Source: Maricaulis parjimensis
GTDB taxonomy: Bacteria > Pseudomonadota > Alphaproteobacteria > Caulobacterales > Maricaulaceae
Direction: 5' to 3'
Length of the DNA: 64,000 nucleotides
Assembly: GCF_016817355.1 (NCBI RefSeq)
Contig: NZ_JADOTT010000010.1
Span: 1 to 64,000 of the forward strand
The notes beneath the pieces are model-generated. The model had not been told where the DNA came from. It worked only from the letters and a program-made list of their open reading frames with translations, and made no database searches. Positions 7,467-57,973 of the stretch are shown piece by piece. Positions within the stretch are counted from its first letter, which is position 1. Every line of letters starts with the position of its first letter. Made by a program: the position numbers and the translations under genes.

Positions 7467-7470
7467 CGCG

Positions 7471-7845: not shown

Positions 7846-7912
7846 CGAATTCCCCCCAGAGTTTCGTGAACCGGGAGGATTCGCCTGTTCCCCGCTTCAG
7901 GCAAGCACCGCT

Positions 7913-9229: not shown

Positions 9230-9280
9230 CGCGATAGTTTGCCATGCCGCCGCCTTGCGGACACCCGCCCGGACGGCCGG

Positions 9281-9571: not shown

Positions 9572-9727
9572 ATTTCACCCTCCTGCCCTCTCACGGCGCT
9601 CAGCATGCGCCACAGGGCCGGATTACCGCAAGAGCGGGGCGAAACCGAGGCGCTCTTCGGCCAGCCTGCCAAGCTGCGGGACCCTTTCGGTCACGTCCGG
9701 AGCCTGGTCACGATGAAGCGCTGGACC

Positions 9728-11149
9728 TCAATAAAGCTGCAGGGCTGTCTCATAGCGGCGGCCCCGGCGCTCCACCACGACCGGCCAGACCCGTTCGCCA
9801 TCATGCCGGCTGAGCAGGTCCGCGAAATCATCCATGTCGCGGACCGGCTGGCCCATGACTTCCACCACAAGATCGCCCGGCCGGAAGCCGAAACGCGCTG
9901 CGATGGAACGGCGCGTTGCACCCGACACGATCACCCCGTCCAGGAAGGGGTCCAGTCCGACACGCTCATTGAAGGCCGGTGACATTTCCACCAGACCCGC
10001 CCCGTTGAACGGATTGCGGCCTTCCGGCTGGAAGGGAAGCGGATCACTGTTTCCCGGTGCCGCCTCGACATTCACATCGACCTCGACTTCCCGATTGTCG
10101 CGCAGGACCGTGAAGCGGGCCGCATCACCGGCGGCACGGGTCGCCATGCGGAACCGGGCCCCGGACTCATCATTGATGTCGCGTCCGTCGATGGCCAGGA
10201 TCACATCGCCCTGCTGCAGGCCGGCATCATCGGCAGCCGCATCCGGATAGATCTCGCCGACCAGAGCGCCGCGCGGCCGGTCCAGGCCGAGGGCCTGGGC
10301 GAGATCATTATCCACCGGCTGCAGACGGGCACCCAGCCAGGGCCGGATCAACTCGCCCTCACCCAGCGCCGTGTCGACGACGCGGCGGACCATCTCCACC
10401 GGAATGGCGAAGCCGATCCCGTTCGATCCGCCCGAGCGCGAGAAGATCATCGTGTTCACACCGACCAGCTCGCCATCCATGTCCACGAGGGCGCCACCGG
10501 AATTGCCCGGATTGATGGCAGCATCGGTCTGGATGAAGGAGCCAAAATCGCTGCGCCCCACATCGGTCCGCGCCAGGGCGGAAACAATGCCGGACGTAAC
10601 CGTCTGGCCGACACCGAAGGGATTGCCGATGGCCAGGACGAGATCACCGACCTCGATATCGCCTGACATGTCATAGTTCAGTACAGGCAGCGGCTCGTCC
10701 GTATTGACCCGCAGCACGGCCAGATCCGTGGCCTCGTCGGTCAGCAGGATTTCCGCCTCATACTCGCGGCGGTCGGCCAGGACGACCCGCAGCTCGGTGG
10801 CATTCGCCACGACATGATTATTCGTGACGATGACGCCCGACGGGTCGACGATCACGCCGGACCCGAGGGAATTCTGTTCCTGCGGCTGGCTGCGGAACAT
10901 GCGCGAAAAGACCGGATCATTCGCGAAGGGGTGCTGGTTCTGCACCACGCGGCGCGAATAGACATTGACCACGGCCGGCGTCACATCGCGCACAATCGGC
11001 GCAAAGGAGAGCTGAACCTCGGCCCGGCTGTCCGGAACAATCCGGTCCTGGGGCAAGGCGGCGTCGGGGGCAAAACCGGTCTCCTGCGCCGCAACCGGCG
11101 CGGAGATGAGGACGGAGGCAAGCAGGATATTCTTGATCATGGTGTCCAT
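9728..11149 (-). CDS. DegP/DegQ (HtrA/Do)-family periplasmic serine protease
   Basis: A 473-residue protein with a signal peptide (about 1-21), a trypsin-like domain with catalytic His112 (TNNHVVANA), Asp142 (TDLAVLRVN) and Ser217 (NPGNSGGALVD), and two PDZ domains (about 270-360 and 390-465; GLQQGDVILAIDGRDI and GFRPGDLVVEVMGQPV). These proteases degrade or refold misfolded envelope proteins. The start could be either of two ATGs, at 11149 or 11140. It follows rplQ on the same strand but beyond a terminator. Confidence 0.92.
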   Translation of the reverse strand: MDTMIKNILLASVLISAPVAAQETGFAPDAALPQDRIVPDSRAEVQLSFAPIVRDVTPAVVNVYSRRVVQNQHPFANDPVFSRMFRSQPQEQNSLGSGVIVDPSGVIVTNNHVVANATELRVVLADRREYEAEILLTDEATDLAVLRVNTDEPLPVLNYDMSGDIEVGDLVLAIGNPFGVGQTVTSGIVSALARTDVGRSDFGSFIQTDAAINPGNSGGALVDMDGELVGVNTMIFSRSGGSNGIGFAIPVEMVRRVVDTALGEGELIRPWLGARLQPVDNDLAQALGLDRPRGALVGEIYPDAAADDAGLQQGDVILAIDGRDINDESGARFRMATRAAGDAARFTVLRDNREVEVDVNVEAAPGNSDPLPFQPEGRNPFNGAGLVEMSPAFNERVGLDPFLDGVIVSGATRRSIAARFGFRPGDLVVEVMGQPVRDMDDFADLLSRHDGERVWPVVVERRGRRYETALQLY

Positions 11150-11172
11150 ATAGGCCGTGTTCGAGACATGAA

Positions 11173-11203
11173 AAAGGCGGCTTGCAAGAGCAAAGCCGCC
11201 TTT
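11173..11203 (-). terminator. Terminator of the alpha ribosomal operon
   Basis: On the minus strand an 11-bp stem AAAGGCGGCTT/AAGCCGCCTTT with a 9-nt loop runs into TTTTT, 26 nt after the rplQ stop. It separates the ribosomal block from the degQ-like gene. Confidence 0.9.
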
Positions 11204-11228
11204 CCCTGAACCTGTGCTGACCGAGAGC

Positions 11229-43028: not shown

Positions 43029-45821
43029 TTAGAAGCGCAGGCGTGCGCCCATGAACAGACGACGACCGAACGGATCGTACGTGGCCGGCCAGGTGTTGGC
43101 CTGCTCGGACGACGTGGAGGTCAGTTCCGGCGGCTGCTCGTCGAAGATGTTCTGGACACCCATCGTGACAGTCGCGGTTTCGCTCACATCGTAAGCAAAG
43201 GTCGCATCGAAGTAGCTGTAGGAGTCGATGCTCAGCTCGCGCTCGGAGACCTGACCAACGAGGGAACCCTCGATGTCCACGCCACCGTTGTAACGCCAGC
43301 GCAGGGAGGACGTCAGAGCACCCCAGTACCAGCTCGCCTGAACGACGTGCTTGTATTCCGGGGTCGGCTCGCCGCACTGGCCGCCGAAGAGGCCTTCGCA
43401 CGAAACGTAACCGGCGATGACAGACGTCTGGTAGCCGTTGTCGAGCGTGAACGTGGAGTAGTAGTTCACAGCGAACGAGCCGAGGTCCGAAGACAGGCCC
43501 ATTTGCTCGGCATCCCAAGCATAGTCGGCGCGAACGTCGACACCTTCAGCCGCGAAGACGGCCAGGTTGGAAGACGTCAGTTCCGGCATGAACGGGTTCG
43601 CCATTTCACCGGTGGACGGGTTACGAGCACCGTTGAAGAAGTCGCACGACGTGGAGATGTCCTGGATGTAGCACTCGTCCAGCAGGTTTTGCAGGGACGG
43701 AGCCGCAATCGCGTTCTCGATCTCGATGTCGTAGTAGTCGACTTGCAGGGTGAAGCCAGCCAGGAAGGACGGCTGCCACACAGCACCGATGGTGAAGGTG
43801 TCAGCGGATTCTTCCTGAACGTTCGGGTTACCACCGAACAGGGCTTCGATCTGAGCGTTCGACTGGAACGCCGTTCCAACGGCAGCAGCCGGAACACCGG
43901 TTGCGATACAGTTGGCGTCGATCGTGGCCGAGGAGTAGGAACCCAGACCGCCGGAGCACGGGTCTTGTGCACCCGGGAAGCCGTTGGTGGCCGGAGCGAA
44001 CAGGTCGCTCACGTTCGGCGCACGGACAGCGCGGTTGAACTGAGCGCGGAAGCGCAGATCTTCAACCGGCTCCCAGCCGAAGCCAGCAGCGTAGGTCTGA
44101 GCCGTACCGATCGTGGAGTAATCCGAGAGACGGAAAGCGCCGGTGAAGTTCAGGCTTTCGATACCCGGACGGTCCGTGATGAGCGGCACGTCGACTTCGG
44201 TGAAGAACTCGTAGACGTCGAAGGAGCCTTCGATCGGCAGCGACTGGTTGAAGCCGCGAACATCCGGGCCGAGCACGGAGTCCGGACGGATGGAGGCGCT
44301 GTTCTCACGGTATTCAACACCGAAGACCAGAGCCGGAGCGACGTTCGCCATCGGCGAAGCCATGTTCTCCAGCGTGCCGGAGATCGCAGCAACAGCCTGG
44401 GTGGCTTCGATCACGTCGATCTGGGCACCCGTACGAGCGATGAAGTCAGCAGCGGCAGCGGAAACAGAGTCCGGGCCGTTGAAGACGTCGAGAGCCGGAG
44501 CCGTACAACCGCTGGCGATGGCCGTCGGGCCGCCGTCGCAGAGCAGAGCTTCCTGGAAGGCCGACACGGAAATGTTGCCGGACAGGATCTGGGAAACCGA
44601 CGAGCGCGAATAGTTGTAGAACGCGTCGTAGGACCAGTTTTCGCTCAGATCGCCGCGGAAACCGAAGACACCCTGGAAGGTGTTCGTGTCACGCAGCGAG
44701 TTACGCGTGGAGATTTCCTGCATACGGCGGTTGATGCGAATATCAGCCGTACCGTCACCATTGTTGGAAGCGGCGTCAGCGGAGATCAGCGCGGCCAGAG
44801 CCGGGGACAGGAACGGGTTGTCCAGGTTGATCGTCATGCCGAGCGTACCCGTCGGCGTCGGAGCCAGCTGGGAATCGACCACGTTGTTCGCGAACAGGCC
44901 GCGAGCATACATTTCGATGTTGTCGGCGATCTCGTACGTGGCGAAGCCAGAGATCATGTGACGTTCCTGCGGCAGTTGCAGGTAGTTGGTCGGCGCGTAG
45001 TTGTACGGCGTCCAAGCAACCGGAGCACCGGAGGTGTCGGTCGTCACGTCAAAGGCAGAACCAGCAGCCGGGCGGATACGCGAACCCGGAATGTTGGAAG
45101 AACCACCCGGATAGTAATCCGTGGAACCCGGACCGTTCGACCACCAGGCCTGCTGCGAGAAGGAGCGGGAGCCCTGGAAGACAGCTTCACGGTTGGTGTA
45201 ACCGAAGTTCAGCACGGCATTACCACGACCATTGTCGAAGTTACCGCCAACCGTAACGGTCACGTCGGTGATGGCAGCGTCGCCTTCTTCGAGGGAGAAC
45301 TCGTGCGAAGCCGAGAACTCAACACCTTCGAAGTCATCACGCAGGATGAAGTTCACAACACCGGCAACAGCGTCAGAACCGTAAACGGCGGACGCACCAC
45401 CGGTCACAACGTCGACGCGCTCAACCATGGCAGCCGGGATGTTGTTCAGGTCGACGACCTGGTTGGCACCGGCGCCAACCATGCGCTGACCGTCAACCAG
45501 GACCAGCGTACGCGTGGTGCCCAGGCCGCGGAGCGACACGGTGGCCGTACCGTTACCCGGGTTGTTCGACGTAGCGTCGAAAGCCGGGATCAGCTGCGGC
45601 AGCGTGTTGAGAAGGTCTTCGGTGTTGACGACGTTGTTCAGCTCGAACATTTCCTCGTCAACCGAGGTGATCGGGCTCGGCGCCACGGTGTCGGTACGCT
45701 GAATGCGGGTACCGGTGATGACGACGATGTCGTCGTCCTGTGCCATCGCCGGCGCGGCCGCAGCCATGCCACCGATAAGCGTGCTGGCCATCAGGCAAGC
45801 TTTAAGGGAAGTCGGTCTCAC
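43029..45821 (-). CDS. TonB-dependent outer-membrane receptor
   Basis: A 930-residue receptor. A signal peptide (1-27, ending in AAPAMAQ) is followed by a possible TonB box DDDIVVITG, the plug domain (about 50-170; LVLVDGQRMVGAGANQVVDL, GGASAVYGSDAVAGVVNFIL) and a large beta barrel ending in RRLFMGARLRF with the terminal Phe. The start is GTG at 45821 with GGAGGG 7 nt upstream; the longer frame upstream is not conserved. Its ligand is unknown. It lies downstream of the oxygenase/sulfotransferase set but is probably transcribed from its own promoter (45925-45953), and it ends in a terminator. Confidence 0.95.
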   Translation of the reverse strand: MRPTSLKACLMASTLIGGMAAAAPAMAQDDDIVVITGTRIQRTDTVAPSPITSVDEEMFELNNVVNTEDLLNTLPQLIPAFDATSNNPGNGTATVSLRGLGTTRTLVLVDGQRMVGAGANQVVDLNNIPAAMVERVDVVTGGASAVYGSDAVAGVVNFILRDDFEGVEFSASHEFSLEEGDAAITDVTVTVGGNFDNGRGNAVLNFGYTNREAVFQGSRSFSQQAWWSNGPGSTDYYPGGSSNIPGSRIRPAAGSAFDVTTDTSGAPVAWTPYNYAPTNYLQLPQERHMISGFATYEIADNIEMYARGLFANNVVDSQLAPTPTGTLGMTINLDNPFLSPALAALISADAASNNGDGTADIRINRRMQEISTRNSLRDTNTFQGVFGFRGDLSENWSYDAFYNYSRSSVSQILSGNISVSAFQEALLCDGGPTAIASGCTAPALDVFNGPDSVSAAAADFIARTGAQIDVIEATQAVAAISGTLENMASPMANVAPALVFGVEYRENSASIRPDSVLGPDVRGFNQSLPIEGSFDVYEFFTEVDVPLITDRPGIESLNFTGAFRLSDYSTIGTAQTYAAGFGWEPVEDLRFRAQFNRAVRAPNVSDLFAPATNGFPGAQDPCSGGLGSYSSATIDANCIATGVPAAAVGTAFQSNAQIEALFGGNPNVQEESADTFTIGAVWQPSFLAGFTLQVDYYDIEIENAIAAPSLQNLLDECYIQDISTSCDFFNGARNPSTGEMANPFMPELTSSNLAVFAAEGVDVRADYAWDAEQMGLSSDLGSFAVNYYSTFTLDNGYQTSVIAGYVSCEGLFGGQCGEPTPEYKHVVQASWYWGALTSSLRWRYNGGVDIEGSLVGQVSERELSIDSYSYFDATFAYDVSETATVTMGVQNIFDEQPPELTSTSSEQANTWPATYDPFGRRLFMGARLRF

Positions 45822-45913
45822 TCTTAATCCCTCCGAGTAAGGTTGGTATGGGAAGCCCGCCCCTTCACGTTTGAAGGCAGAATCCCCCGCTCGGCGGAGC
45901 TCACGTTTCTCCG

Positions 45914-45944
45914 CCTTATTTGCAAAGTACCCATGCGAATAAGG
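45914..45944. promoter_or_regulatory. Inverted repeat overlapping the receptor promoter, candidate operator
   Basis: Arms CCTTATTTGC and GCGAATAAGG, matching at 9 of 10 positions, spaced by 11 nt. The repeat covers the predicted -10 and most of the spacer of the receptor promoter, a natural place for a dimeric repressor. The regulator is not encoded nearby. Confidence 0.5.
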
Positions 45945-45953
45945 AAGGGTCAA
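45925..45953 (-). promoter_or_regulatory. Predicted promoter for the TonB-dependent receptor
   Basis: Minus strand: -35 TTGACC (45953-45948), 17-nt spacer, -10 GTACTT (45930-45925), giving a leader of about 95 nt before the GTG start. The -10 is imperfect. Confidence 0.5.
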
Positions 45954-46101
45954 TGACACGGGACTGTCACAAGCGGCCCCGGAGCGCCATTCACGCCGCA
46001 CTGTTGCGATTTTGCCTCAGACCTATCCAGAAGCTCTCGAAAAAGCACGCATTCGCTTTCGATTTGCCACCCTGCTCACGATTAGCCGGGCAAATCGTGC
46101 G

Positions 46102-47892
46102 TCAAACGGGCAAAAGGTCGAAAGGTGCTGTCACGCGCACCTCATCCGCCTCGAAAGGCTCCACGCCATGCCACATATAGGACGGGAAAAGGATGGCTGA
46201 CCCGGCCTCGGGAAGGATGTAGCGCTCGGCATCCAGCTCAAGTCCGGCCACGCCCGGCACACCCAGGCGCAACCAGCCGGCCCGCTCACCTTCGGCCACC
46301 GCCTGGGGCACCTGCACATAATAGCTGGCACTGATCCATCCGGCCGGATGGATATGATCCACATGCCCGCCGCCGGAGGTGAGCCGTACCGACCAGGCGC
46401 CGGTCAGCTTCAACTGATCGGACTTGCGGCACAGGAAGGGATGGTCCGGATCATCCGGCAGTTCCGACACGAATCGCTTCGCCATGTCGAGCAGGGCCGT
46501 GCCCAGGGCCTGAATGACCGGGTCATCGACATCCCACAAGCGCCCCGGCGACTGGGTCCCGCCGAACAGGGTCTGCTCGATGGGCTGCACGCGAGTGGAA
46601 TGAAGATGTTCGATCCGCGCAGCGAGTTCCGCATTGAACGCGTCCAGCGATTGGAAACCAGGCGGGGTTTCAATGAAGCGCTTCGCCGTCAGCAGGTCGT
46701 AATCATAGAATCGCTTGTAGCGCTCATCGCCCAGACACCGCCAGGCCGTGACCTGCAGGGCCACATGTTTCTGCAAATGCTCCGCTGGCGGCACCGCATC
46801 CAGTGCCTGTTCCGCCTCATCATACCGGCCAGCCGCCAGACAGGCTTCCGCCAATTGGTGACGGATCGCAAAGTCCTTCCCGTCCGACATGTCCAGAGCC
46901 GCACGGATTTCATTGATGGCGATGCCCGGATCACCGAGCTTGCCGAGAATCTCCCCCCGCAGCGCCTTGGCATCCGCATGTCGCGCATCAAGCGCCAGCG
47001 CTTCGCTCGCCGCCTCCAGGGCCGCCTCCGGCCGGCCGGTTCGCATCAGGACACGCGCTCGCGTATGGAACAGGTCAGCCGTGGGTTGCTGCGCGAGGGC
47101 CTGGTCCAGCACGGCGGTGCTCCCCTCTCCCTCACCCATTTCCCAGAGCAGGCCCGCGAGATCACGATGAATGTCTGCCCGCTGTGGCGCGCAGGAAACC
47201 GCCTGACGGTAGGCCTCGCGGGCTGCTTCGGTCTGGCCCAGAGTGCGCAGGGTGTGACCGCGCTGGAAATGGGCCTCGGCAAGACGGGGGGCGAGACGGC
47301 AGGCTTCCTCAAGATCCGCCAAAGATGCGTCAGCCTGGTTTCGTCCGCGCAGCAGAGCGCCCCGGTTGATTCGTGGCATGATCACGCCTGAATTGGCAGA
47401 AACGCACTGGGAATACGCTTCAAGTGCACCGTCTTCATCGCCTTGGTGGGTCAGCACAATGCCCAGCCCGTTGAGCGCTGCTGTGTGGCCAGGTTGTTGC
47501 CTGATTACCGCCTCGAAGGCCGCCGCCGCCTCTGAAAAGCGGCGCAGATCAGTCAGGGTTATCCCCATATTGACGCGCGCATCAGCAAAGCTCGGCTGTT
47601 TTTCCAGAGCCGCTTCGTAGGCTGCCAGTGCACCTTCCAAATCACCGGCCCGCCGTTTGAGATTGCCCAGATTGCTCAGCACGGCATGGGGCTGGCTGTG
47701 CCGGACAGCCGCTGCCTGGAAATCTGCCAGGGCTCCTTCAAACTGCCCGGCCCTGCCCCGCGCCAGGCCTCGAAGGTGCAGGGCTTCAGGCTCTTGCGGA
47801 TATTGCGCAAGAATCGCATCGAGGCGCGCAATCGCCTCTTCCGGGCGCCCCTGCTGCAGCAATTGTGCTGCAATCTGCAGCTCGCGCATCAT
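46102..47892 (-). CDS. TPR protein with C-terminal 2OG-Fe(II) oxygenase domain
   Basis: A 596-residue protein. About residues 1-370 are tetratricopeptide repeats (for example QGRPEEAIARLDAILAQYPQ and FEGALADFQAAAVRHSQ). The C-terminal 100 residues have the 2OG-FeII_Oxy_5 pattern: HVDHIHPAGWISASYYVQVP with metal histidines at about 513 and 515, WHGVEP with distal His575, and Arg586 in VRVTAPFD. Such fusions resemble TPR-bearing protein hydroxylases. Its start overlaps the stop of the upstream sulfotransferase gene by 4 nt. Substrate not known. Confidence 0.85.
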   Translation of the reverse strand: MMRELQIAAQLLQQGRPEEAIARLDAILAQYPQEPEALHLRGLARGRAGQFEGALADFQAAAVRHSQPHAVLSNLGNLKRRAGDLEGALAAYEAALEKQPSFADARVNMGITLTDLRRFSEAAAAFEAVIRQQPGHTAALNGLGIVLTHQGDEDGALEAYSQCVSANSGVIMPRINRGALLRGRNQADASLADLEEACRLAPRLAEAHFQRGHTLRTLGQTEAAREAYRQAVSCAPQRADIHRDLAGLLWEMGEGEGSTAVLDQALAQQPTADLFHTRARVLMRTGRPEAALEAASEALALDARHADAKALRGEILGKLGDPGIAINEIRAALDMSDGKDFAIRHQLAEACLAAGRYDEAEQALDAVPPAEHLQKHVALQVTAWRCLGDERYKRFYDYDLLTAKRFIETPPGFQSLDAFNAELAARIEHLHSTRVQPIEQTLFGGTQSPGRLWDVDDPVIQALGTALLDMAKRFVSELPDDPDHPFLCRKSDQLKLTGAWSVRLTSGGGHVDHIHPAGWISASYYVQVPQAVAEGERAGWLRLGVPGVAGLELDAERYILPEAGSAILFPSYMWHGVEPFEADEVRVTAPFDLLPV

Positions 47893-49982
47893 TGCGAACC
47901 CCGCCCCATCATGCGCGACAGGAAACTCTGCTTGGGCGTTCCCACGCCACCGCTTGAAGGCTCCGCCGCATCCGCGCCGGTCCAGGCACCGGTCTCCGGA
48001 TCAACCGGATAACCAGCCAAGGCCTGCTGGAAGCCCTCCAGATGCGCTGCATAGGGTGTTGTTGAATCAAGATGGTCAGCTGACGGCGGCTTGCGCACCT
48101 GCACCGCGCTGAAGGTCATTACAGCACGGTCCGCCTCGTAATAGCGCAGGCATTTCTCATCCCAGGCAAGGCCGCAGCGCTCGACGACATGACGCAGCTT
48201 CGGTTCAAACTCCCGGACCAGCTCCTCGTATTGGAGCGGGGTCACCCAGTCCGGATCAGCCTTCGCCCAATGGGCGCCGAGGCGCGCCTGTTGGGCATAG
48301 ACATGAGCGATGTCGTCAAGGTCATGGGCGTAGGGCCACATGCGTGAAAAATTGCGGCGATAAATGGAAAAAGCCACTTCCACGGGCTTGCGGCGGATAT
48401 GGATCACCGGCGAGTCCGGGAAAATCCGCCGCATCAGGCCTACAGCAATGAAATTGGCCGGCTGTTTGTCCGTCACCCATTTCGACCCCGTCAGGCCGTA
48501 ATCGCGATACTGGGACAGATAGCGCCCACGCCAATGGGCCAGCCTGTCTTCGGGAATATCACCACCAGACCAGCCGGTCTCCCGCGCCCACCGCATGAAG
48601 TCCTCGAACAGCGAGGGCATCATGCTCAGCTCACCGCCGGCAATCACATCGTCATGCGCGGCAATCGCCGCTTCGATCAGCGTTGTACCCGAGCGTGGCA
48701 TGCCCACGATGAATAGCGGCTGCTGCTCCAATTCACGCCTGGTCGAGATTGAAACCGGGCCGGGAAAGACCTGTTCCAGCCAGCCGGAGCGCCGTTCCTG
48801 CTCGGCACGGTCATAAGCCGACACAATGGCACCATTGTGCTGCAGCTTCTTGGTCTCATTGGCCCGATCCCAGGTACGGAATGCCTCTTCATGGCGCTTG
48901 CGCCGGTGATAGGCATCGCCGAGGGCGAACAGGCCGATCGACAATCGATCCGCAGGCTGGCCCGGCTTCTCGACCTCGATTTCCAGCTGTTCCAGTTCCG
49001 CATCCGTCAACCGGCCGCCGGTAACTTCGGACAATTGGCCATAGGCTTCGAAATTGCCCGGGTCGATCTCCAAGGTCCGCCGGCACATCCGCGCCGCCTC
49101 GTCCGTATCCCCCATGAAGGTGAGGATGCGGGACAATCCGAAACAGGCCTCCGCGCAAGCCGGGTCGATGGCCAGCGCCGTGTCGAAGGCTTCCCGCGCG
49201 CCCTGAAAGTCCCGCGTCCCCAGAACCAAGCGTCCCATTGCCGCCCAGTTCTCGGCCGTCCCGTCCGCGTCGACGACAGGCTGGAAGACGCGCACGGCGC
49301 GCCGGTAGAGACCCTGCTGGCCCAATCCCATCGCCAGCGCGCCCATGGCCTCCAGATCTTCCGGTGCCTGATCGAGCCAGGCCTGGGCCGTCTGGGCGAG
49401 GACGTTCCAGTCGCCGGCATGACGGGCAAGTTCGGATTTCAGACGCAGCACATCCAGCGTTCCGGCAAGCCCACCCCGCTCCGCCACTTCGAGCGCGGCA
49501 TGCGTTCCGGGCAAGTCCAGCTGCTCCATGCACGCGCCGGCCAGCCGCAGTGCGACCTGGGGTGCGGCGGGATGATCCGGTTCGGCCTCAAGCGCCTTGC
49601 CGAGCGCGAAGGCGCAAGTTTTGAAATCCATCTGCTTGCCGGCGAGGTCGCCATATCGCCCCCACGCGTCGAACCGGTCAGGAGCAAGTTCGCTGGCCCG
49701 CCGGGCTGCTTCCACACCTCCGGCCAGATCACCCTGCGCTTCCAGCTGCACGGAACGATAGAGATGGACGAGAGGCTCAGCCCCGTCGGCCTGCTCGGCT
49801 TGGTCGAGCATCTTCCGACCGGTTTCCACATCTCCGGTCTCGATGGCGCAGATGGCCATGATGCTCATGGCCGCCGCATTCCCGGGCTGCTCCTGCAACA
49901 CCGCCTGACACAAGGCCCAGGCGCCGCGAAAATCATCCGCAAGTCTGCGTTGGGCTGCCTCGGCGAGACGCGGATCCTGCAT
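47889..49982 (-). CDS. TPR-repeat sulfotransferase
   Basis: A 697-residue protein with TPR-like helices to about 400 and a PAPS-dependent sulfotransferase domain at about 420-640. The 5'-phosphosulfate loop is GMPRSGTTLIE (427-437), a candidate catalytic base Glu451 sits in GGELSMMP, and the 3'-phosphate site is VIHIRRKPVEVAFSIYRRNF (526-545). This arrangement resembles tyrosylprotein sulfotransferases with TPR substrate-recognition regions. Target is unknown: a protein tyrosine, a peptide or a glycan are possible. It shares 1 nt with the upstream oxygenase stop and 4 nt with the downstream gene. Confidence 0.88.
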   Translation of the reverse strand: MQDPRLAEAAQRRLADDFRGAWALCQAVLQEQPGNAAAMSIMAICAIETGDVETGRKMLDQAEQADGAEPLVHLYRSVQLEAQGDLAGGVEAARRASELAPDRFDAWGRYGDLAGKQMDFKTCAFALGKALEAEPDHPAAPQVALRLAGACMEQLDLPGTHAALEVAERGGLAGTLDVLRLKSELARHAGDWNVLAQTAQAWLDQAPEDLEAMGALAMGLGQQGLYRRAVRVFQPVVDADGTAENWAAMGRLVLGTRDFQGAREAFDTALAIDPACAEACFGLSRILTFMGDTDEAARMCRRTLEIDPGNFEAYGQLSEVTGGRLTDAELEQLEIEVEKPGQPADRLSIGLFALGDAYHRRKRHEEAFRTWDRANETKKLQHNGAIVSAYDRAEQERRSGWLEQVFPGPVSISTRRELEQQPLFIVGMPRSGTTLIEAAIAAHDDVIAGGELSMMPSLFEDFMRWARETGWSGGDIPEDRLAHWRGRYLSQYRDYGLTGSKWVTDKQPANFIAVGLMRRIFPDSPVIHIRRKPVEVAFSIYRRNFSRMWPYAHDLDDIAHVYAQQARLGAHWAKADPDWVTPLQYEELVREFEPKLRHVVERCGLAWDEKCLRYYEADRAVMTFSAVQVRKPPSADHLDSTTPYAAHLEGFQQALAGYPVDPETGAWTGADAAEPSSGGVGTPKQSFLSRMMGRGSQ

Positions 49983-50746
49983 CAGCTTTTCCGATAGGGT
50001 TGATCATTACGGAACCAGCCCGTGATCTGGTGCCGTGACCCGCCCGCGAAGGGCGAAACCGGGCTGACGGAATGGACTTTCCGCCCGTCGAAGATCGACA
50101 ACACGTTGAAACGCGGCAGGAAGGCGCGCGAGATGTCCATATTCTCGTCCAGCAGCATCAGCAGACCACCCCAATCAGGCTGCCAATTGCGCGTGAAGCC
50201 GAATGTGTAGGCCGCCACCCGCTCCTTGTCGTGCCCCTCATCGACATGACGGGTCAGGAAATGCCCACGCGAATAGCGCGTGGCCTGGGCGTCCGCCTTG
50301 GTCACGACCGGTGCCCCTGTCACCTGACGGCCGAATTCGAGAAATTCCGGCGAGTTGAGGAATTCCGTAAGACCGTGGATCGGGTGTCCCGCATCCCAGC
50401 CAGACGTATAGGCCTCGATCATCGGATAGGCATCATAGAGATAGCCGTAATTGTCGCGGGCACGCTCCATGACATGCGCCAGCTTGCGACCGACACCGTC
50501 CCGGCCCAGCTGCATCATGTCCTGCTGGGTCAGCTGAACGACGCGCTCACCACCCGGCGCAGACGGATCCGCTTCCACGAACACCATGCGCCATTGCAAG
50601 TGCCGGCTCAGCAGCCCCTCGATCTCATTCGCGAGCTCCGGCTCCAGCACGTCCGGGATCTGCACCAGCTGATCCCGAGCATAGATTTTCGCCCAGGGTT
50701 CCGGGTCGAGCGCAGGATTGAGACGGAGTTCGAGCGTAGTGGTCAT
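49982..50746 (-). CDS. 2OG-Fe(II) oxygenase (prolyl hydroxylase-like)
   Basis: A 254-residue oxygenase with His167-x-Asp169 in LTRHVDEGHD, distal His225 in RKVHSVSPVSPF, and Arg238 in GGSRHQITGW. The layout resembles the SM-20/prolyl-hydroxylase-like 2OG-FeII_Oxy_4 group, which hydroxylates proteins. It is the first gene of the coupled set oxygenase, TPR-sulfotransferase, TPR-oxygenase, and starts just after the tuf2 terminator region. Confidence 0.87.
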   Translation of the reverse strand: MTTTLELRLNPALDPEPWAKIYARDQLVQIPDVLEPELANEIEGLLSRHLQWRMVFVEADPSAPGGERVVQLTQQDMMQLGRDGVGRKLAHVMERARDNYGYLYDAYPMIEAYTSGWDAGHPIHGLTEFLNSPEFLEFGRQVTGAPVVTKADAQATRYSRGHFLTRHVDEGHDKERVAAYTFGFTRNWQPDWGGLLMLLDENMDISRAFLPRFNVLSIFDGRKVHSVSPVSPFAGGSRHQITGWFRNDQPYRKS

Positions 50747-50922: not shown

Positions 50923-51041
50923 TCGTATTTGCCCCGAAGGGCGAGAAGGTCCGGGGGACCTTCTCGAAAATGCGGGCCGGTGCGCCCAAGCTAGCTTGGG
51001 CACGCCGTCGTTTTTCGAAGATTACTCTACAATCTTCGAAA
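50923..51041. repeat. Hairpin-rich segment at the tuf2 3' end, possible small palindromic element
   Basis: Four inverted repeats follow one another: a GCCC-CGAA-GGGC hairpin (50931-50942), CGAGAAGGTCC/GGACCTTCTCG with a GGG loop (50942-50966), the perfect 18-bp palindrome GCCCAAGCTAGCTTGGGC (50984-51001), and TTTCGAAGATT/AATCTTCGAAA with a 7-nt loop (51013-51041). The last covers the tuf2 stop codon. On the minus strand the first reads C(TTCG)G, the very stable tetraloop. The segment separates working tuf2 from its tuf1-like tail. Confidence 0.75.
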
Positions 51042-52212
51042 CAACGCCGGCGCCGACGGTGCGACCGCCTTCACGGATAGCGAAGCGCAGCTTCTCTTCC
51101 ATGGCGATCGGCGTGATCAGCTCGACATTCATTTCCACATTATCGCCCGGCATCACCATCTCGGTGCCTTCCTTCAGCGTCACGACGCCGGTCACGTCGG
51201 TCGTGCGGAAGTAGAACTGCGGACGGTAGTTCGTGAAGAACGGCGTGTGACGGCCACCCTCTTCCTTCGTCAGGATATAGGCTTCAGCCACGAACTTGGA
51301 GTGCGGCTTGATCGAGCCCGGCTTACACAGAACCTGACCACGCTCAACGCCTTCACGGTCGATACCGCGAAGCAGGACGCCGACATTGTCACCCGCCTGG
51401 CCCTGATCGAGCAGCTTGCGGAACATTTCAACGCCCGTACACGTCGTCTTCTGCGTGTCGCGAATACCCACGATCTCGATTTCTTCGCCGACCTTGACGA
51501 TACCGCGCTCAACGCGACCCGTCACAACCGTACCCCGGCCAGAGATCGAGAACACGTCTTCGATCGGCATCAGGAAGGGCTGGTCAATCGGACGATCCGG
51601 CGTCGGGATGTACTCATCCACAGCCGCCATCAGCTCAAGGATCTTCTCCTTGCCGATGTTCTCGTCACGGCCTTCAACAGCCGCCAGAGCCGAACCCGCA
51701 ACGATCGGAATATCGTCGCCCGGGAAGTCGTAGGAGGACAGAAGTTCGCGAACTTCCATTTCCACGAGCTCCAGAAGCTCTTCATCGTCGACCTGGTCAA
51801 CCTTGTTCAGGAACACAACCAGGGCCGGAACGCCAACCTGGCGGGCCAGCAGGATGTGTTCACGCGTCTGCGGCATCGGGCCGTCAGCAGCGTTCACAAC
51901 CAGGATCGCGCCGTCCATCTGCGCCGCACCCGTGATCATGTTCTTCACATAGTCAGCGTGACCCGGGCAGTCCACGTGCGCGTAGTGACGGTTTTCCGTC
52001 TCATACTCAACGTGAGCCGTCGAGATCGTGATACCGCGCGCCTTCTCTTCCGGCGCCGAGTCAATCTCGTCATAACCCTTGGCCGTGCCGCCACCGGCCT
52101 CAGCCAGAACCATCGTGATCGCAGCCGTCAGCGTCGTCTTGCCGTGGTCAACGTGACCAATCGTGCCGATGTTCGCGTGCGGCTTGGTGCGCTCAAACTT
52201 TTCCTTCGCCAT
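51022..52212 (-). CDS. tuf: Elongation factor Tu, copy 2
   Basis: 396 residues, identical in protein to tuf1. The start is the ATG at 52212; a longer frame to 52338 is not conserved. The coding DNA matches tuf1 up to the last seven codons, where tuf2 has GTT-GTT-TCG-AAG-ATT-GTA-GAG against GTC-GTC-TCC-AAA-ATC-GTC-GAG in tuf1, the same peptide with less usual codons. Outside the gene the two loci diverge at once. It lies alone between two accessory islands. Confidence 0.99.
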
Positions 52213-52620
52213 CGATCTTACCTCATGCGATGTCGATCTGGAGACGAATGGCCGATCGACTGAGTGGTGGTACAAAAGGATGTGAACACATCCAAATTCA
52301 GTGCGGGCCTGATACACAAGGAATTGCCGGCTAGGCAAGCCCGAATGCAGACTGACGCCTGCTGCGGGGAAGCGCGGGACGATTCACGCATCCGGCAAAG
52401 GCCGATTTCCGGTACGATTTACCGCGTCGGCCGATCGCAAAAACAGGCCGAACCCGTCGTCGCAGCGCTTGAGAAAACGCCCGCAAAACGTTTCCCCACC
52501 ACGTGAAAACATTACGAACGGACAAAAATACGTGTGATTTCAAGTAAATAGAATTTACGCATTCGGGTTTTTTGCTTGCCTAGCGCAAATCCTCCTGCCT
52601 AGGGTTTGCCGACAGGCAAA
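52213..52620. promoter_or_regulatory. Divergent intergenic region between tuf2 and the KAS III operon
   Basis: 408 nt without a gene, AT-richer than its surroundings. It holds a tuf2 promoter candidate (52267-52295), palindromes GGATGTGAACACATCC (52278-52293) and GTAAATAGAATTTAC (52544-52558), and a long-range inverted pair, 52330-52348 and 52559-52584, in which GCATTCGGG and CTTGCCTAGC recur with a 7-nt insertion in the second. GCCTAG also recurs at 52601. No clear -10/-35 pair for the plus-strand operon was settled. Confidence 0.6.
52267..52295 (-). promoter_or_regulatory. Possible tuf2 promoter
   Basis: Minus strand: TTGGAT (52295-52290), 17-nt spacer, TACCAC (52272-52267), with the palindrome GGATGTGAACACATCC filling the spacer. 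The -10 is poor; TTGTGT further upstream is an alternative -35. Confidence 0.3.
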
Positions 52621-53694
52621 ATGAGGCCCGACACCATGACGCTGATCCGTCAGATTGAACCGGCCGCCGCAACCCGGATCGCCACGGCCCGGATAACCGG
52701 CATGGCCCACCATCTTCCGTCCAGAATTCTCGAATCGAAATCTGTGGACCAACGGTACGGAAAACCGGACGGCTGGCTGGAAAAACTGTGCGGGGTCCGC
52801 TCGCGCAGCATCGCCGCGGAAGCCGACACTCAAGAAAGCATGGCTGTGGCGGCTGCCCGCGCGGCAATCCGGCAGGCCGGCATCGGCACCGACGACATCG
52901 ACCTTCTCCTGTTCGGAGCGGCCGTCGGACGCCAACCCATTCCCGCGACTGCCCCCCTCATCAAACGCGAACTGGGCCTCTCCCACCTGAGCTTTCCGGC
53001 CTATGACGTCAACGCAACCTGCCTGAGCGCGCTGGTCGCGCTGGATCTCGCGAATCTGCAGATCGCGTCGGGCCGGGCCCGTACCATTCTGGTCGTCACC
53101 TCCGAGATCGCGTCCCGGGCTCTGCCATGGGACAGCGATCCCAAAACAGCAGGCCTGTTCGGAGACGGTGCGGCCGCACTGGTTGTCTCCTCCGATGCCC
53201 CCTCCGTCGAAGAAACGTCGGGCGTCTCGCTACACTTGCGGGACTTCTTCATGGAAACCTATTCGGAGGCCTATGATTGCTGTGCTCTTCCATCTGGCGG
53301 AACGCGGTACGACTTTCACCAGGACCCGGGTCAGTTCGCCGAGAACGCCTATTTCCGGATGGACGGCCCAGGCTTGTTCGGCCTGACAGCCGCCAAACTC
53401 CCTGACTTCCTCGATACACTCCTGAACCGCCTGGGATGGTCGCGTGAGGACGTCGACTTGATCATCCCCCACCAGGCATCCCCGCTCGCGCTCACCCATA
53501 TGGCGCGACGCAGCGGATTTGCCCGTGACCGAATTTTCAACCAGGTCGCCACGACCGGAAATCTGGTTGCCGCCTCACTGCCAGTCGCCCTCTCAAGCGC
53601 CCTGTCAGAAGGCCGAATCTGGCCCGGAATGAAAATTCTGATGATCGGCACATCGGCCGGCGTATCCCTGGCGGGTGCCGGACTGGAGAGCTGA
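52621..53694 (+). CDS. KAS III-type condensing enzyme (FabH/OleA-like thiolase fold)
   Basis: A 357-residue condensing enzyme. The Cys-His-Asn triad is visible: Cys134 in DVNATCLSAL, His284 in IIPHQASPLAL, Asn314 in TTGNLVAASLPVAL. These enzymes join an acyl thioester to malonyl-ACP (FabH) or join two acyl-CoAs (OleA). The gene is the first of a coupled five-gene operon with no other fatty acid gene, which argues for a special product rather than housekeeping FabH. ATGs at 52621 and 52636 are both possible starts. Confidence 0.87.
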   Translation: MRPDTMTLIRQIEPAAATRIATARITGMAHHLPSRILESKSVDQRYGKPDGWLEKLCGVRSRSIAAEADTQESMAVAAARAAIRQAGIGTDDIDLLLFGAAVGRQPIPATAPLIKRELGLSHLSFPAYDVNATCLSALVALDLANLQIASGRARTILVVTSEIASRALPWDSDPKTAGLFGDGAAALVVSSDAPSVEETSGVSLHLRDFFMETYSEAYDCCALPSGGTRYDFHQDPGQFAENAYFRMDGPGLFGLTAAKLPDFLDTLLNRLGWSREDVDLIIPHQASPLALTHMARRSGFARDRIFNQVATTGNLVAASLPVALSSALSEGRIWPGMKILMIGTSAGVSLAGAGLES

Positions 53695-53698
53695 CACG

Positions 53699-54667
53699 AT
53701 GCGCATTCTTCTGTCCGGCGCGACGGGCTTTCTTGGCGGGCATTTGCTGCGCCGGCTTCATCAGGACGGACATTCGGTGATCGCCCTGGGGCGCAACAAG
53801 ACACGGCTTGCTGAGCTGGCAGGGCTCGCGGATGCGTGCTTGCTCCATGATCTGGCCGACGGCATTCCGGATGGTGTTCCCAGCGTAGACGCCGTCATTC
53901 ACGCTGCCGCACTCTCAAGCCCTTGGGGGAGCCGCGCTGCCTTCCAGCGCGCGAATGTCACCGGGACCGAGACCATGATTGCTCTTGCCCGCCAGTGCAG
54001 TGCCCGGCGTTTCGTCCTGATCTCCTCGCCCAGCGTCTATTTTAAATTTGCCGATCAGCACGCCTTGGCCGAAGCCAGCCCATTACCGCCACCCGTGAAC
54101 GCCTATGCCGCCACGAAACGGCAGGCCGAAAAATTGGTCGAGGCGGCCACAGACCTCGACCCCGTGATCTTGCGTCCGCGCGGGCTGTACGGGCGCGGGG
54201 ATACATCCCTGCTGCCGCGATTGCTCAAAGCGGCCCGGAACGGTCCCCTGCCCCTGATGCGGGATGGCAAGGCCGCGACTGACCTGACGCATGTCGAGGA
54301 CGTGGTTTCGGCGGTTCTGGCAGCGCTGGATGCTCCGTCCAGCCTGCCGCAACGTGTGTTCAATATCTCAGGCGGCCAAGCCCTGAAGATCCGGGATGTC
54401 GCTGAGGCCGCAGCCCTTCGAAGCGGGATCTCACCAAGATGGCGGCGCCTTCCCGTCACCCCCGTTCTCGCCGCGGCGCGTCTGGCCGAATGGAGTTGCC
54501 GGCTTGCTCCAGGCCAACCGGAGCCGCCCGTCACGGCGTATGGCGTCGGCCTGTTCGCCTATCACCAGACACTGGATCTTACGGCAGCGCGTACCTGGTT
54601 GGGCTGGAACCCTCAAATCGATTTCGAGACCGGGCTTGCCCTCACTTTCTCTCAGGAGGCGGCATGA
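53699..54667 (+). CDS. NAD(P)-dependent epimerase/dehydratase (extended SDR, 3-beta-HSD/OleD-like)
   Basis: A 322-residue extended short-chain dehydrogenase. The nucleotide loop GATGFLGG has Gly7, Gly10 and Gly13, and the catalytic pair Tyr136-x3-Lys140 is in NAYAATKRQ, with the serine in LISSPSVYF. GGAGAG stands 8 nt before the ATG. Next to a condensing enzyme it most likely reduces the 3-keto group of the condensation product, as OleD does; this is inference. Its stop overlaps the next start (ATGA). Confidence 0.85.
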   Translation: MRILLSGATGFLGGHLLRRLHQDGHSVIALGRNKTRLAELAGLADACLLHDLADGIPDGVPSVDAVIHAAALSSPWGSRAAFQRANVTGTETMIALARQCSARRFVLISSPSVYFKFADQHALAEASPLPPPVNAYAATKRQAEKLVEAATDLDPVILRPRGLYGRGDTSLLPRLLKAARNGPLPLMRDGKAATDLTHVEDVVSAVLAALDAPSSLPQRVFNISGGQALKIRDVAEAAALRSGISPRWRRLPVTPVLAAARLAEWSCRLAPGQPEPPVTAYGVGLFAYHQTLDLTAARTWLGWNPQIDFETGLALTFSQEAA

Positions 54668-55467
54668 TCGAGGAACTCCGCTTTCCCAGTTCCGCGACGG
54701 TTCGGGCTCCGGAACGTCTCGTTCTCAAAGGCGGACGAAGCGACTGGATCGATATTCCCGTCCGTTACGGTGTCTTCCGACACGCAAAAGCGGGGACCTG
54801 CCTGATCGATACGGGATATTCACGACGGGTCACGGCAGGCCGCCGGTCCTTGTCGCTCAATATCTACAATATGCTTCTGCGGCCGCGCCTGACGCCAAAC
54901 TGCCTCCCGGATGCCGTCCGGAATGTCGATACAATCCTGATCACGCATTGGCATGCCGATCACATATCGGCGCTGCTCGACTATCCGGAGGCACGGATCA
55001 TCGCAGACCGGAAGAGTCTCGACCATTACCTCCGCGTCGGCGCCTCGCGTTTGCGCCATGGCGTGTTCGCCGAACTCTTGCCGGACGGGCTTATCGACCG
55101 GATCGATGATCTCGCCAGCCGCCCACAGAAAGAAGCGCCGCTTGGCTTGGGCGCTGGACTGGACGTGTTTGGCGACGGCTCTGTCTTTGCGATTCCGCTG
55201 CCCGGGCACATGCGTGGTCACACCGGCTATTGCTTTGCCCGAAGAGACCGCCCTCTGCTTTATGCGGCCGACGCCCAATGGCTGGAGCAGGCTGTCATGG
55301 AAGACCGGTTGCCGGGTGCTCCGGCGAGCTGGGTTCTCGATAACGAAGCCGCCAACCAGGATACTGCCCGGCGTATCCGCGCCTTTGCCGAGTCTGGAGG
55401 CGACGTCGTTTATTGTCACGATCCCGTCGTACCTCCCTGTCTGGATCGGGAGGCTCTTCCGGAATGA
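54664..55467 (+). CDS. MBL-fold metallo-hydrolase
   Basis: A 267-residue protein with the metallo-beta-lactamase motif His95-x-His97-x-Asp99-His100 (THWHADHIS), the LPGHMRGHTGY histidine region (182/186) and Asp203 in AADAQW. It should bind two metals and hydrolyse a thioester, lactone or phosphodiester. Within the operon it could release the acyl chain from ACP or CoA. It overlaps the SDR gene before it and the ligase-like gene after it by 4 nt each. Confidence 0.87.
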   Translation: MIEELRFPSSATVRAPERLVLKGGRSDWIDIPVRYGVFRHAKAGTCLIDTGYSRRVTAGRRSLSLNIYNMLLRPRLTPNCLPDAVRNVDTILITHWHADHISALLDYPEARIIADRKSLDHYLRVGASRLRHGVFAELLPDGLIDRIDDLASRPQKEAPLGLGAGLDVFGDGSVFAIPLPGHMRGHTGYCFARRDRPLLYAADAQWLEQAVMEDRLPGAPASWVLDNEAANQDTARRIRAFAESGGDVVYCHDPVVPPCLDREALPE

Positions 55468-56735
55468 GTTCCGTGTTCGCTCAAACCCGGATCATGGCGG
55501 CTTATGCGCGCGCACGATGGCAGACAGCGCGCCTGAAAACGCGTGCCGATGTGGAAACCTGGCAGGAGAAGCGGCTTGAGCGTTTCCTGTCCGGACCGGT
55601 TGCACGGGTCGCAGCGTATCGGGACATGGCCGGACAACCGCTCAATGCGTTTCCCCTCCTCGACAAGGCGGCGCTCGTGGCGCGCTACGACGGGTTCAAC
55701 CGAATGGGACTGACCTGTGCCCAGGCACGGCATGCCTGGTCCGAAGGCATATCCCCGAAGGGCTATGCAATCGGCGCCAGTACCGGCACCAGTGGCAATC
55801 GCGGTTTCTACATTGTGTCCGATGCCGAACGCTATGCCTGGCTAGGTACGATCCTGGGCCGCGGCCTGCCCGGGTTCTGGAGAAACAGGCTCAAGGTCGC
55901 GGTCATGCTGCCGGCCAATAGCCGCCTCTACGACGCTGCCAATGAAAGCAGACGTCTGGCGCTTCGGTTTTTTGATCTTCACGATGGCGTTGAGGCGCAG
56001 GCGAAGGCGGTGGAAGACTGGCTGCCGGATGTTCTCGTTGCCCCGCCAAAAGTCCTGCGTTTGCTGGCCGAGCGCCGGTCTGACCTGGCGCCCCGGCATG
56101 TCTTCTCCGGAGCAGAAGTGCTCGACCCCAAGGACCGCGCCCTGGTCGAGGGCCGCTTTTCAACCGTCGTGCGGGAAATCTACATGGCCACGGAAGGACT
56201 GTTCGCCATCGCCTGCCCGGCCGGGACGCTTCATCTGCTGGAAGACTTCATCAAGTTCGAATGGGATCCGGATCCGGGCGGTGGCAATCTGCGCGCTCCG
56301 ATCATTACAGATTTCACCCGAAGAACGCAGACAATGGTGCGCTACCGGATGAATGACCTTCTCGAACTGCAAGAGGAAGCCTGCTCCTGTGGCTCCCCCT
56401 TCACGGCGGTGAAGGCGGTTGTGGGCCGGATGGATGATGTCCTCCGACTGATCGGTCAGGACAGACGTGCGGTTCTGGTCACGCCGGATATCATCCGCAA
56501 TGCCGTTGTCGATGCTGACGCCCGGATCGACGACTTCCGCGTCATTCAGCGTGCGGACGGACAGGTTGAGTTGAGCCTGCCTCGAGCTCGGGCCGAGGCC
56601 CTGCCGGCAGCCCGTGAGGCGCTGGTGTCCTTGTTCTACGCCCTGGGAACGAGGACACGCGTCGAGGCGACAGCCTGCGACCTGCCTCCGGCTGACAGTC
56701 GCAAACTGCGCCGTGTAATGCGGGAAACCGCGTGA
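55464..56735 (+). CDS. F390-synthetase-like adenylate-forming enzyme (PaaK-like)
   Basis: A 423-residue protein resembling F390 synthetase/phenylacetate-CoA ligase-like adenylating enzymes. The ATP-binding loop ASTGTSGNRG is at 105-114, the FSGAEVLDPKDRALVE and EIYMATEGLFAIAC segments match the adenylate-forming core, and DFTRRTQTMVRYRMNDLLEL precedes ACSCGSPF, a possible metal-binding cysteine pair. It probably activates a carboxylate as an acyl-adenylate; acceptor unknown. It overlaps both neighbours by 4 nt. Confidence 0.82.
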   Translation: MSSVFAQTRIMAAYARARWQTARLKTRADVETWQEKRLERFLSGPVARVAAYRDMAGQPLNAFPLLDKAALVARYDGFNRMGLTCAQARHAWSEGISPKGYAIGASTGTSGNRGFYIVSDAERYAWLGTILGRGLPGFWRNRLKVAVMLPANSRLYDAANESRRLALRFFDLHDGVEAQAKAVEDWLPDVLVAPPKVLRLLAERRSDLAPRHVFSGAEVLDPKDRALVEGRFSTVVREIYMATEGLFAIACPAGTLHLLEDFIKFEWDPDPGGGNLRAPIITDFTRRTQTMVRYRMNDLLELQEEACSCGSPFTAVKAVVGRMDDVLRLIGQDRRAVLVTPDIIRNAVVDADARIDDFRVIQRADGQVELSLPRARAEALPAAREALVSLFYALGTRTRVEATACDLPPADSRKLRRVMRETA

Positions 56736-57973
56736 AGATCTCGATCCAGACCTTGGGCACGCTGGGCGATGTCATGCCATTTTTGACTGTGGCCAAAGCC
56801 CTGCAGGCCCGCGGCCACAGCGTCAGCGTGCTGGCACCGCGGGATCATTCTGAAACCATCCAGGCATGGGGTGTGGACGTCGCCGAACCGCCCGGCTTTT
56901 CCGTGGCTGACTGGATGCAGGAAGCCGAGGCCCGTGGAACCCTGTCCGGACCCTTCAGTTTTTTCCGGGACTGGCACGAGATGATCGAGCCGCATGCCCT
57001 TGATGTCCTTGATCGGTCGATTGATGCTGCGGGGCAGGCTGAGCTTGTTTTGGCCAATCCGATCGCGATGCCGGCCCGGATTGCGGCAGAACATTGTCGC
57101 AATCCTCTGGTTCTCATTGCGCTGCAGCCGGTCATTACGCCGTCGTCAGCCCTGCCCTGTGCCATGATCGCCCGCCAGGGGCTTTCCGGGCCCGGCAACA
57201 AGGCCAGCTATATCGCCGTGGCAGGGGCTCTTGCCGGTCTGGCCAGCGTTTTGGGACGGGAGAGACAGCGGCTTGTGCCCGAACCCAGGCCGGCCTTCTG
57301 GCGGCTTGACCGGCATCTCGGCCGCCCCCTGCCCCGGATTACCGCCCTTCCCGCCATATTCGGCATCAAGCGCCCGGACGATTTCACGGCCTCGGACCAT
57401 CTGGTCGACTATCCCCCCCTGCAATCCTCCAACGGCCTTGACCCGGCTCTGGAAGCCTTCCTGAAAGCCGGACCAGCCCCGCTCCATGTTTCACTGGGCT
57501 CCATGCCGACCCGGGAGGTCGCCCATGCCCTGCCAGTCTGGCTTGAGCGGATAGAAAGATCCGGTCACCGCGCCATCTTGTCCACCAGCCTGGCCGGCCG
57601 GCCGGCGGGGGGGATGGGTGTGCATTTCGTTTCCGGGCCCGCGCCGCACGACCGGCTTTTCCCGCATTGTTCGGCGGTGATCCATCACGGGGGAGCCGGC
57701 ACTTTGGACACGGCCGCGCGGGCCGGCGTGCCGCAGATCATCTTGCCCCAAGTGCTCGATCAATTCTGGAATGCCCGGCAATTGGCAGACACAGGCGCCG
57801 GCATCATCTTGCGCAAAAAGGATCACACAGCCGAAAACATCGATGCCGCCCTGCAAACGATCCTGTCGGACAGCGTCCAGGACACCGCGAGACAGGCGGC
57901 CGAACGGCTCAAAGCCCGGGCGTCGACGGCGGAGCTTGTTTCGCTCATCGAGGCGTATGGCGTCGCACGCTGA
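56732..57973 (+). CDS. Glycosyltransferase, GT1/UGT family
   Basis: A 413-residue GT-B glycosyltransferase. The N-terminal domain starts MKISIQTLGTLGDVMPFLTV; the donor-binding domain has HVSLGSMPT and the UGT signature HHGGAGTLDTAARAGVPQII (318-337). These enzymes move a sugar from a nucleotide donor to a lipid or small molecule; antibiotic, macrolide and sterol glucosyltransferases are relatives. The GTG start overlaps the ligase stop (GTGA), completing the coupled operon. It converges on the DedA gene with a 29-nt overlap. Confidence 0.88.
   Translation: MKISIQTLGTLGDVMPFLTVAKALQARGHSVSVLAPRDHSETIQAWGVDVAEPPGFSVADWMQEAEARGTLSGPFSFFRDWHEMIEPHALDVLDRSIDAAGQAELVLANPIAMPARIAAEHCRNPLVLIALQPVITPSSALPCAMIARQGLSGPGNKASYIAVAGALAGLASVLGRERQRLVPEPRPAFWRLDRHLGRPLPRITALPAIFGIKRPDDFTASDHLVDYPPLQSSNGLDPALEAFLKAGPAPLHVSLGSMPTREVAHALPVWLERIERSGHRAILSTSLAGRPAGGMGVHFVSGPAPHDRLFPHCSAVIHHGGAGTLDTAARAGVPQIILPQVLDQFWNARQLADTGAGIILRKKDHTAENIDAALQTILSDSVQDTARQAAERLKARASTAELVSLIEAYGVAR

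Follow-up and report, generated by a model that had tools for sequence, protein, structure and literature searches.

A conserved four-gene core with exchangeable modules in a five-enzyme operon of Maricaulis parjimensis

Introduction

What might a bacterium make with a condensing enzyme, a reductase, a hydrolase, an adenylating enzyme and a glycosyltransferase encoded as one unit? The question is raised by an operon of Maricaulis parjimensis (assembly GCF_016817355.1) that lies within positions 1 to 64,000 of contig NZ_JADOTT010000010.1; this 64,000-nucleotide stretch is called the window below, and coordinates refer to it. A preliminary description, made from the sequence alone, had read five genes as one unit with some likeness to the ole (olefin/β-lactone) pathway, and had named no product for them. 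Here we report that the operon is real, conserved and under purifying selection, and that four of its genes form a core found in widely separated bacteria. The literature searches made also yielded no product for the gene set and no description of the operon in any carrier, which is weak evidence since most subscription papers lay outside their coverage.

Results

The operon and its conservation

The five enzyme genes lie on the + strand. The first (52636–53694) encodes a ketoacyl synthase III (KAS III)-like condensing enzyme of 352 amino acids, P0001. It is followed by genes for an extended short-chain dehydrogenase/reductase (SDR; P0002, 322 amino acids, 53699–54667), a metallo-β-lactamase (MBL)-fold hydrolase (P0003, 267 amino acids, 54664–55467), a PaaK-like adenylate-forming ligase (P0004, 423 amino acids, 55464–56735) and a GT1/GT28-type glycosyltransferase with a GTG start (P0005, 413 amino acids, 56732–57973). 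NCBIfam or Pfam agreed with the five family names given earlier, the ligase being recognised by NCBIfam only, as ‘F390 synthetase-related’ TIGR02304. The arrangement as a single operon was likewise upheld, with slightly corrected positions. A 4-nucleotide gap does follow the KAS III gene, as had been noted, and three 4-nucleotide overlaps (ATGA, ATGA, GTGA) come after it, not the four previously counted. The KAS III gene had been started at 52621, where an in-frame ATG is indeed present; we take the start as 52636, with which the first start codon of the open reading frame aligns in two related loci (L006 and L086; loci are numbered with L, genomes with G and contigs with C).

In 26 other genome loci with the same gene order, 4-nucleotide overlaps were found at 53 of 89 junctions (starts chosen automatically, and the duplicate locus L091 excluded). 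Ratios of non-synonymous to synonymous substitution (dN/dS), calculated with our own Nei–Gojobori script, were 0.03–0.24 for the four core genes in six related pairs. For the window core genes compared with L005, L006 and L086 they were 0.10–0.27, and for the glycosyltransferase 0.12–0.30; dS was high, near saturation, for the window pairs, and one MBL pair with infinite dS was excluded. With dN/dS of 0.03–0.30, all five genes are maintained as proteins, and together with the overlaps this indicates that the operon is more than a chance arrangement. Chance neighbours are ruled out by a gene order that is conserved despite low sequence identity. A phage origin was rejected, as a blastn search of the DNA against 50,697 phage records gave no match; no protein search was made.

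A four-gene core

The genes were expected to travel together across genomes, and four of them do. KAS III, SDR, MBL and F390/PaaK-like genes were clustered within a single stretch in 43 of the 44 loci compared, and in 37 of the 44 they were adjacent in the order KAS III–SDR–MBL–ligase (the window is included in both counts, and L144, among the 37, lacks annotation, its gene order coming from tblastn alone). The SDR gene follows the ligase gene in L014, the ligase gene is inverted and some kilobases away in L015–L017, and an ATP-grasp gene is inserted after KAS III in L138 and L139. L140, on a Pseudomonas amygdali megaplasmid, has KAS III, SDR and MBL genes with a small extra gene in between (7974–11224), and no ligase gene was found in the stretch available. 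The supposed five-gene unit is therefore replaced by a core of four genes plus a lineage-specific module.

The core occurs in Alpha-, Beta- and Gammaproteobacteria, in Bacillota (including Bacillota plasmids) and in some E. coli. Searching with P0004 gave 17 loci, one of them (L021) at a contig edge. Within the family the ligase was found in 8 of 137 genomes, all from the same genus (8 of its 19 genomes), and across the phylum TIGR02304 matched 14 of 398 genomes at E≤1e-20. All nine genomes other than that of M. parjimensis that scored at least 154 bits carry the core. Weaker matches were rejected as members: G078 and G079 (98–108 bits) have no other core gene within 19 kb, and G620, G649, G734 and G760 (75–94 bits) have none in flanks of about 1.5 kb. 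Plasmids contributed 13 loci, chosen manually from sets of 27 and 44 records; nine were found via P0004 and four via P0001. Excluded from the counts were L021, L090 and L091 (from the same genomes as L006 and L005) and L092 and L093 (weak matches).

The condensing enzyme

The best NCBIfam match of P0001 was PRK07204, at 270.7 bits against a cut-off of 402, and FabH-family models, which were also among its best matches, scored 207.7 and 192.4 bits, again below their cut-offs (TIGR00747: 192 against 292). The genome has a housekeeping fabH of its own elsewhere (G000:C12:142962–143921), which scores 407 bits against the cut-off of 292, and FabH exceeded the cut-off in nine of ten genomes searched.

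A KAS III tree of 50 sequences was built, with 32 core sequences taken from the window and 31 genome loci (no plasmid loci; L005 and L091 are one gene). The Cys-His-Asn triad is intact in all 32. At the position of FabH Phe304, a residue with a role in that enzyme, the core sequences have Val (15), Ile (12) or Leu (5), and FabH sequences have Phe in nine of 11 and Leu in two. The position of the OleA glutamate is occupied by Ile in 24 core sequences, Leu in six and Val in two, against Glu in all three OleA sequences. The role of OleA Glu117 in catalysis is described in the available parts of PMC7064751 and PMC4578411; the former also mentions two OleA proteins that lack it, and the latter reports Val at this position in the ketosynthases MxnB and CorB.

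In the tree, the 11 FabH sequences, together with a second KAS III pair from M. parjimensis itself, were separated from the core by a 98/93 branch, and the three OleA sequences lay across a separate long 100/100 branch. The core joined MxnB and CorB with starred support (97/84), in a tree with few KAS III types and long-branch warnings. In the portion of PMC4578411 available, MxnB and CorB fall within the FabH clade of a tree of 284 ketosynthases, so the smaller tree is to be read cautiously. P0001 is neither a housekeeping FabH nor an OleA. The first identity was rejected on the genome's own fabH, the 98/93 separation and the score below cut-off, which bears out the earlier view that P0001 is not the housekeeping enzyme. 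Its description as OleA-like has to be dropped, since the catalytic Glu is missing in all 32 core sequences and the OleA sequences branch separately.

The second pair consists of additional KAS III-like genes separated by about 3 kb (G000:C13:181112–184340, L075). Similar pairs are present in G350, G353 and G358, and they form long branches on the FabH side of the tree.

Reductase, hydrolase and ligase

The top NCBIfam matches of the SDR were OleD models. The label ‘OleD-like’ holds to that extent and no further, as the best score, 169.7 bits against NF042422, is far below the cut-off of 580. Its best match in the Protein Data Bank (PDB) was sterol-4-α-carboxylate 3-dehydrogenase (76.5 bits). 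This enzyme and OleD act on β-keto or β-hydroxy acids. The matches suit a β-ketoreductase step, though they are no proof of one. In L083 the SDR gene is split across two frames (6982–7991), by a frameshift or a sequencing error.

Alignments of the hydrolase and the ligase comprised 24 and 23, respectively, of 32 available sequences. His95, His97, Asp99, His100, His182, Asp203 and His252 of the hydrolase were invariant, giving the HxHxDH motif and the downstream His, Asp and His of metal-dependent MBLs resembling N-acyl homoserine lactone (AHL) lactonases. The predicted structure (mean predicted local distance difference test score, pLDDT, 94.0) had 4-pyridoxolactonase and AHL lactonases as best fold matches, the first eight with query template-modelling scores of 0.68–0.76, and a profile search likewise placed it nearest to lactonases.

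The ligase scored 276.0 bits against TIGR02304, above the curated cut-off of 251.9, and gave no Pfam match at 0.001. The ANL motifs A3, A5, A7 and A8 were invariant or nearly so, and Lys414, the lysine of A10, was invariant. The best fold match of its predicted structure (mean pLDDT 89.8) was PaaK1, followed by AjiA1, BT_0428 and NatL2, with 2-hydroxyisobutyryl-CoA ligase lower in the list. On these grounds P0004 is an adenylating enzyme of PaaK-like type. For a plant pathogen, PMC9823363 lists a mutant in a coenzyme F390 synthetase.

The glycosyltransferase and other modules

The C-terminal domain of the glycosyltransferase is EryCIII-like, and its nearest solved structures are GtfA, GtfB and GtfD and sterol glucosyltransferases; rhamnosyltransferase structures matched weakly (50–53 bits). 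A convergent gene on the − strand (P0006, 57945–58616) overlaps its 3′ end by 29 nucleotides and encodes a DedA/VTT-domain membrane protein (VTT 35.0 bits, cut-off 33.9). The DedA family has been reported to move lipids across membranes. A DedA-like homologue stands next to the glycosyltransferase in all 11 GT1 loci with flanking sequence, the window included, and none was found by tblastn (1e-8) in the available stretch of the 32 loci that lack GT1. The window protein is 66% identical to the copy in L090 and 41% identical to that in L007. Thus the glycosyltransferase is a lineage-specific fifth gene, accompanied by a convergent DedA-like gene.

Among the 44 loci, whose module counts are not frequencies because the plasmid loci were picked by hand, the GT1 module was present in 12 (the window, L005–L008, L010–L013 and L085–L087; the L005 contig ends within its GT1 gene). 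The commonest module, an ATP-grasp gene with or without Rieske or GNAT genes, was found in 17. PAP2, fatty-acid hydroxylase and desaturase genes accompany the core in five loci, DUF3419 in four, a sulfotransferase in three and GT21 in one, and no module was recognised in two (L079, L140). The DUF3419 family includes the betaine-lipid enzyme BtaA. In the KAS III tree, L009 (DUF3419 type) grouped with the Maricaulis glycosyltransferase loci (97/86), and L088 and L089, both of DUF3419 type and of the same genus, branched outside. These positions, judged by eye, indicate that modules have been exchanged on a fixed core. Most of the modules are lipid or group-transfer enzymes, the pattern to be expected of a single scaffold that is completed in several ways.

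Two further observations concern individual loci. L009 lies on a contig of a metagenome-assembled genome labelled Candidatus Sulfopaludibacter (Acidobacteriota), and its genes are nested among those of Alphaproteobacteria, which probably reflects misbinning or transfer. In Ketogulonicigenium and Paracoccus (L141, L148, L150) the core is accompanied by genes for a sulfotransferase and a TetR regulator, the latter divergent.

The E. coli form

The E. coli core is accompanied by PAP2, hydroxylase and desaturase genes, and the whole cassette sits in the interval from narI to the tRNA-Tyr genes. In MG1655 the space from narI to rttR contains nothing but the small ychS. A megablast search with the seven-gene stretch matched 672 of 5426 complete genomes, 671 of them over at least 80% of its length; among the 15 matches listed, several carry strain names that mark them as urinary isolates. 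Literature searches on the E. coli cassette found nothing relevant. The record for L137 (NZ_CP141085.1, E. coli KE48 ‘plasmid unnamed1’) contains narGHJI...galU-hns and therefore looks like a piece of chromosome.

Genes around the operon

Upstream of the operon is a divergent EF-Tu gene (within 51022–52263); downstream, the DedA-like gene is followed by tRNA-Gly and tRNA-Tyr genes. Farther upstream, on the − strand (43029–50746), a TonB-dependent receptor-like gene (called from sequence) stands in a row with genes for a tetratricopeptide repeat (TPR)/2-oxoglutarate-Fe(II) (2OG-Fe(II)) oxygenase, a TPR/sulfotransferase and a 2OG-Fe(II) oxygenase. This row is possibly a peptide-modifying group.

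Discussion

A proposed pathway and its alternatives

We propose that the four-gene core builds a scaffold derived from fatty acyl chains, which in Maricaulis/Hyphomonadaceae would then be glycosylated, and we give this lipid reading an even chance of being right. The KAS III cysteine would take up an acyl chain for condensation with a second thioester, probably by a mechanism other than the glutamate-based one of OleA, and the SDR would reduce the resulting β-keto group to β-hydroxy. For the next two steps folds have been predicted: the MBL enzyme may release the free acid by hydrolysing a thioester or lactone, and the PaaK-like ligase may activate this acid as acyl-AMP and pass it to CoA or another acceptor. 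The scaffold left by the core would carry a hydroxyl and a carboxylate open to activation. The glycosyltransferase could place a sugar on the hydroxyl, and the DedA-like protein could then move the glycolipid across the membrane.

Several points weigh against this proposal. In a single-sequence search of the PDB, P0001 matched a FabH best (4ryb, 160.5 bits), with MxnB (156.5), CorB (152.5) and PqsD (94) behind it, and the SDR matches MoeE5 at 75.2 bits, nearly as well as its top PDB match. Being closest to lactonases, the hydrolase may open a lactone and not a thioester, and modules with ATP-grasp and GNAT genes would suit an amide- or amino-acid-containing product equally. The core KAS III sequences fall on one side of a branch whose support, 91/89, is below the starred level, in a tree that excludes PpyS, PqsD, CerJ and other KAS III types; the program flagged OleA, the C13 pair and one FabH as long branches, and four sequences as unusual in composition. 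No sigma-70-like promoter was found upstream of the operon. We infer all substrates and products of the pathway.

A simpler product would be a rhamnolipid-like glycolipid of a 3-hydroxy fatty acid, made by a KAS III acting as a FabH with malonyl-ACP, an SDR forming the 3-hydroxyacyl chain, an MBL enzyme releasing it and the glycosyltransferase adding sugar. The FabH structure match, the presence of FabH models among the best NCBIfam matches (under their cut-offs) and the weak rhamnosyltransferase matches are in keeping with this. However, 3-hydroxyacyl-ACP is already a product of ordinary fatty-acid synthesis, which would make a dedicated KAS III and SDR redundant, and the residues at the Phe304 position in all 32 core sequences differ from the Phe of most FabH sequences; we consider such a glycolipid unlikely. 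Membership of the ole pathway was rejected, with the OleA glutamate, the tree position and the OleD cut-off all against it. A diverged ole pathway to a β-lactone or olefin, with the MBL enzyme and the PaaK-like ligase in place of OleB and OleC, would account for the OleD match of the SDR and for the adenylating enzyme that follows, as OleC does. It would do so in the face of the same three results and of a Pfam scan of the five proteins without any α/β-hydrolase or AMP-binding (PF00501) match, which agrees with the earlier statement that OleB and OleC are not recognisable; nor was an OleD found at E≤1e-60 in the genome, with eight of 28 first-look candidates scored. Such a pathway is highly improbable.

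Alternatively the product may be a secreted signal or antibiotic of pyrone, butenolide or amide type, which the glycosyltransferase would mask or tune. The KAS III joins the α-pyrone synthases MxnB and CorB in the tree and shares their non-Glu residue, the hydrolase is lactonase-like, and AjiA1 and NatL2, PaaK-family ligases with natural-product roles, are among the nearest folds of P0004 behind PaaK1; the patchy distribution within the genus also fits. The PAP2, fatty-acid hydroxylase, desaturase, DUF3419 and DedA modules suggest membranes instead, and we regard a secreted molecule as rather unlikely.

The fatty-acyl-derived scaffold can be tentatively extended to all carriers, as a widespread pathway in which one lipid-like scaffold is capped at its hydroxyl or carboxyl according to lineage, with a sugar, sulfate, aminocarboxypropyl group, phospho group or amide. 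In that case the operon of Maricaulis would be the glycosylated, DedA-handled form of a pathway present in roughly an eighth of complete E. coli genomes, a possibility on the doubtful side. If the core does make one scaffold, the E. coli counts alone would point to an overlooked class of bacterial molecules, and TIGR02304 and a separate KAS III clade would gain their first function.

Comparison with known systems

The quinolone signal pathway PqsA/PqsD/PqsE combines a KAS III, an MBL thioesterase and a CoA ligase, like the window set; to our knowledge it includes no SDR or glycosyltransferase. P0001 is also less similar to PqsD (94 bits) than to CorB and MxnB (152–157 bits). MxnB and CorB work with large polyketide synthase clusters, and we know of no SDR–MBL–PaaK core for either. 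These α-pyrone ketosynthases, of myxopyronin and corallopyronin (PMC5724707, PMC4578411), resemble the core enzyme in being KAS III proteins with a Cys-His-Asn triad, in the aliphatic residue at the OleA-Glu position (Val, against Ile, Leu or Val in the core) and in being its nearest neighbours in the tree. A gene resembling F390 synthetase or phenylacetyl-CoA ligase is described in lipid clusters of Kuenenia stuttgartiensis and D. psychrophila, where the acyl ligase was proposed to help attach the chain to glycerol; the likeness to the window is this F390-type gene, and the difference that the clusters are described as type II fatty-acid synthesis (FASII) clusters, as far as the accessible text of PMC2649909 goes.

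OleABCD, of Xanthomonas and others, shares with the window operon a condensing enzyme, an OleD-like SDR and an adenylating enzyme in one cluster, and hence a logic of condensation, reduction and adenylation. The window operon is nevertheless not a member of that family: it lacks OleA Glu117 and OleB, its ligase is PaaK-like and not OleC-like, and it adds an MBL enzyme and variable modules. The enterobacterial narI–tyrT cassette (for example ECABU_RS07620–07650) has all four core genes, identically ordered, with core proteins (in L137) 26–36% identical to those of the window, and differs in that PAP2, sterol-desaturase-family and acyl-CoA desaturase genes follow the core in place of the glycosyltransferase.

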